A DNA stretch of 64,000 bases from Sulfuricurvum kujiense DSM 16994 (GTDB taxonomy: Bacteria; Campylobacterota; Campylobacteria; Campylobacterales; Sulfurimonadaceae), in contig NC_014762.1 in NCBI RefSeq assembly GCF_000183725.1, forward strand, positions 1,860,001-1,924,000, read 5' to 3'. This document shows positions 15,352 to 44,132 of this stretch, piece after piece. Below the pieces are notes generated by a model that was given only the letters and a program-made list of their open reading frames with translations, was not told where the DNA came from and did no database searches. The position numbers and the translations under genes were made by a program. Each line of letters starts with the position of its first letter. The first letter of the stretch is position 1.

Positions 15352-15368
15352 CTGTTCTTAGTATATCT

Positions 15369-15438
15369 GCCTCGATAGAGGCAAGCTTCAGTGCCTTAGC
15401 GGCTAGCGTAGTCAAAGGGATTTTATTCCTTTGACGTT
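15369..15438 (+). repeat. Dispersed two-hairpin repeat, copy A
   Basis: Hairpin 1 is GCCTC-gata-GAGGC (15369-15382). A conserved linker follows (15385-15410, containing TCAGTGCCTTAGCGGC). Hairpin 2 is an 8-bp stem GTCAAAGG/CCTTTGAC with a 9-base loop (15411-15435). The copy at 43018-43088 matches the linker with few changes but has compensatory changes in both stems. It ends 5 bases from the purH stop codon. Function unknown. Confidence 0.8.
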
Positions 15439-15443
15439 CAAAT

Positions 15444-16979
15444 TTAATGAAGAAAGTGGCGAACGCCGGTAAAGTAAAGGGCCATACCGTGCTCATCCGC
15501 TGCCGCAATGACCTCCTCATCGCGCACCGAACCGCCCGGCTGGATAACGGTTTTAACACCCGCACCCGCCGCCGCGTCGATCGAATCACGGAACGGGAAG
15601 AACGCTTCGGAAGCCAATGCCGAACCGCTGACATCCAGACCCATCTCTTCGGCTTTTTTAAGCGCACAGCGCGCCGCATCGACACGGGAAGTCATCCCCA
15701 TACCGACCGCGACCATCGCCGAGTCTTTGACGTAAACGACACAGTTCGATTTAGTCAACGATGCTACTTTATAGGCAATCTCCGCGTCTTTCATCGCCGC
15801 TTCATCGGCAACGTGTTTGGTTACCAATTTAGCGTTTTTAACTTCCTCTGCAGTTACACGGTCGGCATCTTGGAATACAAATCCGCCGTCGATGTGTTTG
15901 AAATCGATCGCATCATTGCTCAATGTAATACGCTCACTGCCGTATTCGAAGAGTTTGAGACGTTTTTTCGGCTCGAATACCGCAAGCGCTTCCTCATCGA
16001 TGCGTCCGGCGATGATCACTTCGAGGAACATCTCATTCATTTTTTCCGCCAATGCTTTCGTCACGACACCGTTTACCGCTACGACACCGCCGAATGCCGA
16101 GATAGGATCGCATTTAAGCGCTTCGTTATACGCATCGAGAAGATTATCACGGATCGCAAAACCGCACGGGTTGCCGTGTTTGACGATACAGATCGCATTT
16201 TCATCCCCGAATGCCGCCGCGATTTTAACCGCACCGCTGATATCGGTAAGGTTGTTGAAACTCGCTTCCCCTTTGAGGGTTTTAAAGTTTTTAGAGAAGA
16301 ACGCGTCAAACTCGTATAGCCCGCCTTTTTGGTGCGGGTTTTCACCGTAACGGGTATCCATCACTTTGTTTCCGACGATGAATTGCTTGTTCCCCATCCC
16401 GTTGTTGAAGCGTTTGTTCATGTAGTTGGCAATCATAGAATCGTATGCCGCAGTGTGCTCATACGCTTTGATCATCAAATCACGGCGGAATTCAACCGTA
16501 TTGTCACCGTTTGCAATCGCATTTAAAACGAGCGAATAATCTGACGGGTCGGTCAGGATGATAACGCTGTCGAAGTTTTTCGCCGCAGAGCGCACCATCG
16601 CCGGACCGCCGATGTCGATATTTTCGATGATCTCTTCGAAATCGTCGGTTTTTTCGATCGTCGCTTTGAACGGATAGAGGTTAACACACACCAAATCGAT
16701 CGCCTCGACACCCAGCTCTTTGGCCTGGTCAAGGTGAGATTGTTTGTCACGTCGGTGCAAGATTCCGCCGTGGATGTACGGATTCAATGTTTTTACACGC
16801 CCTTCGAAACACTCCGGGAATTTGGTCACCTCATCGATCTCGATCGCGGTAACTCCAGCTTCTTTGAGCATTTTATAGGTTCCGCCCGTAGAGATGATTT
16901 GATACTCCAATCCGATCAGAGATTTGGCGAATTCAACGATGTTGCTTTTGTCGCTGACGCTTAGCAATGCGCGCTTCAT
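15444..16979 (-). CDS. purH: Bifunctional AICAR transformylase / IMP cyclohydrolase
   Basis: 511 aa, the last two steps of de novo purine synthesis. N-terminal cyclohydrolase (MGS-like) domain begins [21 protein letters not shown] and contains [13 protein letters not shown]; the C-terminal transformylase carries [10 protein letters not shown] near 215 and the catalytic KHGNPCG near 268. It ends with RHFLH, the usual PurH C-terminus. Length is normal. ATG at 16979. A repeat element lies directly after its stop codon. Confidence 0.97.
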
Positions 16980-42992: not shown

Positions 42993-43017
42993 AATCTCTC
43001 CCTCTTAAGCTAAAATC

Positions 43018-43088
43018 GTCTCATAAGAGACACGCTTCAGTGCCTTAGCGGCAAGCGTAGCCAAAGGGATTTTATTCCTTTTGGCGTT
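43018..43088 (+). repeat. Dispersed two-hairpin repeat, copy B
   Basis: Hairpin 1 is GTCTC-ataa-GAGAC (43018-43031); linker 43034-43059 is nearly identical to copy A; hairpin 2 is GCCAAAGGG/CCTTTTGGC (43060-43085), nine pairs with one G-U. Compared with copy A, C-G in place of T-A occurs in both stems, keeping pairing. It lies in the spacer between two divergent genes, 36 bases before the waaC promoter box. Confidence 0.8.
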
Positions 43089-43123
43089 TATAAAAATAAA
43101 TGTGAAGTGTAGCTTAGTTGCGC

Positions 43124-43129: not shown

Positions 43130-43136
43130 TATGCTT

Positions 43137-44132
43137 ATGAATACTCGAAATTTCCGAATAGCTATCGTACGGTTAAGTGCATTAGGCGACATTGTCAATA
43201 CTGCCGTAGTCTTGCAAATCATCCGTAAGCATTATCCTGAAGCGACGATCGACTGGTACGTCGAAGAAGCTTTCGCACCTATACTCAACGACCATCCTCT
43301 GATCAGCAAGGTGATCTCCGTTCCCCTGAAACGGATCAAAAAAACAAAAAGTTTACACCTTCTCAAAGAGACGGTCCGCAGCCTAAAATCCCATCCCCCT
43401 TACGATCAGATTATCGATGCGCAGGGTTTGCTTAAATCGGCACTCGTGACCTATTTTTTACAAGGGAAAGTGCACGGATTTGACCGTTTCAGCGCGCGCG
43501 AAAAACTTGCCGCACGATTTTATGATACCGTATCGTCCATCCCTTATGAACTCAATATCATTAAAAGGAATGTTCTCGTCATTACCGAAGCGTTAAACAT
43601 CCCGTACAATGAAAACGATATTCTCAATAAAGAACCTCTTTTTCCTCTCCGTGACAAACCGAAAACTTTGAGTGAAACAAAAAATATCGCCTGCGTGATC
43701 GGGGCTTCGTGGCCGAGTAAATGCTATCCCAAAGAGCATTTTGCCGCACTTTGTTCGCAATTGCCTTATCCCTGTCATCTGATCTGGGGAAGCGAAGCCG
43801 AGAAACTCGATGCGCAATGGATATGCGAACAGACTTCCAATGCCAAAGTCGCCCCGAAAATGTCGCTGGGTGAACTGGTCAGTTTTATCGGACATTGCGA
43901 TCTCACGATCGGCAATGATACAGGCCCTACCCACATGGCATGGGCGATGAACAAAGCCTCCATTACCCTCTTCGGTCCTACCAATGAGCGGATGATCTTT
44001 CCGACAGAGATCAATATCGGGATCAAATCCCCCTCTTCGGTCAATATTCTTAAAATCAACCGCAACGATTTTTCGATTCAAGAAATTGACCCGCAGACGG
44101 TGCTTCAAAAAGCCAAGGAACTTTTATCATGA
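43137..44132 (+). CDS. waaC: Lipopolysaccharide heptosyltransferase I
   Basis: 331 aa GT9 glycosyltransferase adding the first heptose to Kdo of the LPS inner core. N-terminal motif IAIVRLSALGDIVNTAVVL and C-terminal IGNDTGPTHMAWAMNK plus LFGPTNERM are typical. I chose 43137 rather than the ATG six bases upstream because of the promoter spacing. It overlaps waaM by 4 bases, the same waaC-waaM order as in C. jejuni. Confidence 0.94.
   Translation: MNTRNFRIAIVRLSALGDIVNTAVVLQIIRKHYPEATIDWYVEEAFAPILNDHPLISKVISVPLKRIKKTKSLHLLKETVRSLKSHPPYDQIIDAQGLLKSALVTYFLQGKVHGFDRFSAREKLAARFYDTVSSIPYELNIIKRNVLVITEALNIPYNENDILNKEPLFPLRDKPKTLSETKNIACVIGASWPSKCYPKEHFAALCSQLPYPCHLIWGSEAEKLDAQWICEQTSNAKVAPKMSLGELVSFIGHCDLTIGNDTGPTHMAWAMNKASITLFGPTNERMIFPTEINIGIKSPSSVNILKINRNDFSIQEIDPQTVLQKAKELLS

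Follow-up and report, generated by a model that had tools for sequence, protein, structure and literature searches.

Two short repeats in the window (the whole stretch of DNA analysed, 64 kb of a 2.57 Mb contig of Sulfuricurvum kujiense DSM 16994, whose 2.82 Mb genome comprises five contigs) belong to a dispersed element of about 78 bp with three hairpins, the fold of which is strongly conserved while the letters of its stems change freely. With roughly even confidence, we interpret it as a REP-like mobile element that is non-autonomous and is recognised as folded single-stranded DNA by a putative enzyme. Occurring in numerous genera of the order Campylobacterales, with heavy covariation and no Rfam entry, the repeat appears to have been overlooked so far, and its hundreds of variants constitute a natural library of one folded element.

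The copies predicted at 15369–15438 and 43018–43088 are both present in the sequence, with ends that the covariance model extends slightly (Table 1), and the gene coordinates agree with the predicted contexts at the purH 3' end and upstream of waaC, the second copy being flanked by a minus-strand sensor-like gene and waaC. The stem pairs given for the two copies (GCCTC/GAGGC versus GTCTC/GAGAC, among others) are correct, and the linker, described as nearly unchanged, differs at two positions. All of 200 shuffles folded worse than either copy, as DNA or as RNA (z −3.7 to −5.7, + strand). Chance similarity is excluded: a 111-base query found 20 places in the genome (best non-self E 6e-19), and a 22-base linker pattern gave 23 matches in the genome versus 0 for a reversed control pattern. 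This contig carries about 23 copies, most of them intergenic and no more than a few tens of bases from a gene.

Table 1. Features of the two element copies and neighbouring genes, in window positions
Feature	Position	Strand	Remarks
Copy 1, whole element	15366–15443	+	purH 3' end; covariance-model match 15366–15442, 103 bits
Copy 1, H1 hairpin TGCCTC-GATA-GAGGCA	15368–15383	+	from sequence
Copy 1, linker including GTAG	15385–15411	+	from sequence
Copy 1, near-invariant linker	15385–15407	+	inner hairpin GCC(TTAGC)GGC 15393–15403; outer 3 bp 15385–15387/15405–15407
Copy 1, GTAG, 5' foot of H2	15408–15411	+	
Copy 1, H2 hairpin, conserved G-T pair close to loop	15411–15435	+	
Copy 1, right tail GTTCAAAT	15436–15443	+	adjoins purH stop codon
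purH stop codon TTA	15444–15446	purH on −	first triplet past copy 1
purH	15444–16979	−	
Copy 2, whole element	43015–43092	+	covariance-model match, 82.4 bits
Copy 2, H1 hairpin GTCTC-ATAA-GAGAC	43018–43031	+	sequence, fold
Copy 2, linker hairpin and GTAG (GTAG 43057–43060)	43034–43060	+	sequence, fold
Copy 2, H2 hairpin GCCAAAGGG...CCTTTTGGC	43060–43085	+	sequence, fold
Family 9 heptosyltransferase (waaC-like)	43131–44132	+	

Read 5' to 3', the element consists of hairpin H1, a near-invariant linker containing a small hairpin, the tetranucleotide GTAG and hairpin H2 of 10–11 bp, that is, TCTGCC(TC..GA)GGCA, AGCTTYAGTGCCWTAGCGGCNAGCGTAG, the 10–11 bp hairpin and CGTTCAAA. The linker folds as GCC-WTAGC-GGC enclosed by GCT/AGC and occurs in rare compensatory versions (ACC/GGT at L060 and L238, GGC/GCC at L264). 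The original prediction took it for a recognition element; a plain recognition stretch it is not, since it folds and carries these compensatory changes. The foot of H2 is GTAG in 79 of 99 copies and GCAG in 8, and a G-T pair near the H2 loop is likewise conserved in 79 of the 99. H1 carries GTAG on neither strand, and the sequences of the two ends of the element are not inverted copies of one another. The GC hairpin followed by a T run of an intrinsic terminator was found at neither hairpin, H2 being followed by CGTTCAAA and H1 by AGCTTC.

The covariance-model search proposed for this and related genomes returned family- and order-wide matches. The element was detected in 40 of 41 genomes of the genus, 187 of 228 of the family (14 of 18 genera) and 88 of 399 of the order (seven families). 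A draw of 249 genomes from across the phylum gave 29 carriers, every one of these in the same order. All counts are lower bounds, obtained with strict filters and a Sulfuricurvum-trained model. Named relatives sharing the linker were almost all Sulfuricurvum; a single exact linker match in Niabella (L024) had no element around it and was taken as chance. Plasmid and phage records gave no match, no curated Rfam covariance model matched the element, and no description of the repeat was found in the literature outside subscription papers, so that the family is apparently undescribed. Head-to-tail tandem copies with a spacing of 86–111 bases occur in other genera and families (L260, L264, L265, L271, L272).

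That the paired stem changes reflect selection on structure, as first proposed from the two copies, is supported by an independent MAFFT alignment of 54 copies, made with no fitting to the structure, in which 95.9% of cells pair and slid controls collapse. In this alignment 15 of 22 pairs had changed on both sides versus 6.5 when shuffled, a value reached in 0 of 500 shuffles, although such shuffle tests are inflated by related sequences. RNAalifold, unaided, recovered much the same hairpins, and order-wide, in a model-fitted alignment of 99 distinct copies from several families, both-side changes were seen in 17 of 22 pairs (6/6 in H1, 9/10 in H2), again reached in 0 of 500 shuffles. With 61 distinct pair types beyond the first, many events are needed despite the kinship of the sequences. 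Copies with broken stems, or with a linker as variable as the stems, were looked for and the opposite was found: order-wide, variation is concentrated in the stems and the linker is nearly constant.

Where the structure is irrelevant on one strand, G-T and A-C intermediates should be equally common. The observed G-T:A-C ratio was 51:7 (p 2e-9, leaving out the conserved G-T column near the H2 loop), and 18:1 (p 8e-5) in the 46 copies whose two neighbouring genes are both antisense to the element. Since the wobble bias holds in these antisense copies, what folds is the top strand of the element itself, as opposed to the mRNA of its neighbours. No promoter motif was found in the left flank of the copies, which makes single-stranded DNA the simpler reading, RNA arising by read-through or from an unseen promoter being possible.

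In 57 copies the H2 side points at a gene's 3' end, and in 41 of these the stop codon is at most 5 nt away, versus 21.8 expected by random placement in the same gaps, with genes taken as mechanical ORFs; none of 20,000 simulations reached the observed count. For the H1 end the figure is 8 of 34, versus 8.4 expected. In a dozen or so cases the stop codon is supplied by the element's own end (distances −3 to −5). Gene orientations around the copies are mixed. This placement poses a concrete puzzle of targeting or selection. One alternative reading, which we consider unlikely, is that the copies are cis-acting 3'-end or intercistronic elements, mRNA hairpins behind stop codons that are kept for a local function, with decay protection, ribosome stalling and operon tuning as candidate roles, as proposed for E. 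coli REPs. The position of the H2 end would fit such a role, as would the intergenic location of the copies, often between co-directional genes, and the different hairpin sequence that a relative carries at the same site (L244). However, in the largest class the wobble tolerance is on the strand opposite the mRNA (18:1), 14 of the 99 copies lie between divergent genes, one orthologous copy has decayed and the purH copy is missing in relatives.

Some 25 orthologous purH loci of the genus are without the element, and their flanks join cleanly in most; the purH copy is an insertion relative to these relatives. An 8-base overlap at this site (TTAGTGTA) was considered as a target-site duplication and rejected, 41 copies showing none family-wide (several hundred offsets, best z 2.4); the overlap is accounted for by insertion at the stop codon with AT-rich ends. 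G035 and G038, closely related genomes with about 92–98% identity around shared copies, differ in whether the element is present at L224, L227, L237 and L238. Several presence/absence sites hold other sequence and are not cleanly empty, and at some of the G035/G038 differences the other genome has a different hairpin repeat; hot spots seem to trade repeat families. Where G038 carries the element, G035 has a CGTC-tagged-REP-like repeat (TCATACCCGCTTTCGCGGGAATGACGG) at L243 (contig C32, 6987–7341) and another palindromic repeat (GTTCGCCCTGAGCTTCTCGAAGGGTGA ... GGTTCGACAGGCTCACC) at L248 (contig C27, 578–958).

Copies shared by G035 and G038 are about as conserved as their own flanks. At the waaC site, G000 and G020 each have an intact copy, the two H2 stems being quite different, and G002 has a decayed one (28 bits). 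Copies within a genome are no more alike than copies between genomes, and a recent burst of copying is therefore not seen. On a Mu-like phage contig, an intact-looking copy lies between the terminase gene and the portal gene, making such a phage a possible vehicle. A Mu-like phage contig (L186, ~1295) and a genome of the family (L272, 1000–1190) have a common sequence, AAATGAGGGGTTCC(C)TTCATTTTGTAAAACAAA, right after the element, which suggests phage-borne copies. Single-strand transposition is expected to leave a lagging-strand bias; replication-strand counts of 56:38 showed no significant bias (p 0.08), with contig starts checked for dnaA, the terminus assumed at mid-contig and some insertions shared between genomes. 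A full-length autonomous form was considered and rejected, all linker matches in the genome being the short form or one 35–50 bases longer.

On the reading that we favour, of a REP-like element handled as folded single-stranded DNA, the top strand, once single-stranded, would fold into the three hairpins, and a candidate trans-acting enzyme would bind this fold, reading the linker, GTAG and the mismatched H2. The enzyme would cut near both ends (TCTG on the left, GTTC on the right), and the H2 end would be joined to DNA near gene 3' ends. Copies may be born, swap stems and loops by recombination and decay, and the covariation would persist because only still-folding copies propagate. It is conceivable, if rather improbable, that the element represents a novel non-autonomous class, mobilised as folded single-stranded DNA by an enzyme without relationship to RAYT/TnpA and integrating at gene 3' ends with the H2 end meeting or supplying the stop codon.

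GTAG and a conserved stem mismatch are recognition features of REPs, and such REPs are cut by RAYT/TnpA-REP (PMC8266576). A GTAG-type REP family that a RAYT transposase mobilises or once mobilised, H1 and the linker being passengers, would account for the GTAG at the H2 foot (79/99), the short loop and the conserved mismatch. It would also fit a genome-level co-occurrence with RAYT genes, which across the order are present in 64 of the 88 genomes that bear the element versus 114 of 311 others (counted by hand from listings), but this is confounded by phylogeny and genome size. We nevertheless regard RAYT mobilisation as quite doubtful and, on present evidence, unsupported: no element was found near any of 79 Y1/RAYT loci of the genus and order, the high-copy genomes G020, G034, G038 and G104 are without any RAYT/Y1 gene, H2 is no more strongly conserved than the linker and H1, and the inverted REP partner is missing. 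Conversely, G012 has a RAYT gene and no element. The RAYT loci inspected carry different inverted repeats (GGGGTCTGACCCC, GGGGTCAG) and resemble the TIR-flanked group of PMC3733652. It is on the empty loci, the RAYT-less high-copy genomes and these other repeats that we file the element as REP-like but outside RAYT-REP systems. The REP-like form, GTAG with a mismatched hairpin, is here separated from any linked RAYT gene, and so the spread of RAYT-less palindromic repeats becomes directly testable. Three neighbouring RAYT-like Y1 transposase genes, one a truncated duplicate, lie near GGGGTCTGACCCC and GGTGTCAGGCACC palindromes in G000 (L021–L023, contig C4, ~2.122–2.129 Mb).

Compared with known systems, the element is like GTAG-tagged REPs (PMC3733652) in having a short palindrome, located outside genes and bearing GTAG (or GYAG) at one foot, a 6–13 bp stem with G-T pairs, a loop of 2–4 bases and tens of copies. 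Unlike in those REPs, the palindrome is invariably accompanied by a structured, near-invariant linker and by a second hairpin without GTAG, and the element lacks the RAYT-gene association of a REPtron (0/79 loci). Those REPs show strand-specific single-stranded recognition with CT/CA cleavage, on which the G-T:A-C asymmetry of the element bears only indirectly. The text of Di Nocera et al. (2013, PMC3733652) reports GTAG repeats for epsilon Proteobacteria, and for Sulfurovum NBC37-1 repeats of the GTAG as well as the CGTC type, and it names no Sulfuricurvum, Sulfurimonas, Sulfurospirillum, Campylobacter or Arcobacter; possibly, H2 in Sulfurovum was partly sighted there. REPINs/BIMEs, believed to be mobilised as folded single-stranded DNA (PMC3116915), are likewise composite palindromic units with compensatory changes, whereas the present element has no two inverted REPs but is asymmetric, with two unlike hairpins and a conserved spacer that has its own hairpin. 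The ends of IS200/IS605 and their gene-less derivatives resemble it in that sub-terminal hairpins lie at either end, the target is not duplicated and folding is strand-specific; they differ in that no transposase-bearing relative was found here in the flanks of the 79 Y1/RAYT genes (a divergent master being possible), the 27-base linker is constant, and the H2 end lies at stop codons and not at a fixed tetranucleotide target. CGTC-tagged REPs are similarly dispersed and unlinked to transposases, but the element has neither their CGTC tag nor their CCA tail, and, in contrast to MITEs, both terminal inverted repeats and target duplication are missing.

The original prediction had left the choice between a mobile palindromic element and a regulatory RNA. 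The former gained from the purH insertion absent in relatives and from the G035/G038 differences; the latter, while still possible, was weakened by the wobble asymmetry, which indicates the element's own strand even in copies with both neighbours antisense, by the mixed gene orientations and by the lack of a promoter motif. Its specific form, a multi-copy structured small RNA for which the top strand of every copy is transcribed and the linker serves as binding site, is very unlikely in our judgement: the top-strand G-T preference, conserved linker and stable RNA fold are what it would lead one to expect, yet the left flank is without a promoter motif, Rfam gave no match, a T run is missing after H2, and it would be unusual for such an RNA to have 20–40 sibling copies dispersed over varied contexts. 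That the paired stem changes arise by mutation and not selection, template switching perfecting near-palindromes, would suit the one site (L242/L252) at which the stems of G035 and G038 differ in their entirety but is extremely improbable, as such correction would erase the G-T pair that 79 of 99 copies retain and leaves the order-wide conservation of the linker unexplained.

Two structural variants were also observed. In a longer form, 35–50 additional bases lie between H1 and GTGCC (L112, L113, L117 and L118 in this genome, L247 in G035), and one copy, at the same site in both genomes, is of the long form in G035 and of the short form in G038. At L104, L113 and L118, H2 contains a further hairpin within its loop (CACGTGCCCTTT..AGGGTATTG), similar across these loci.
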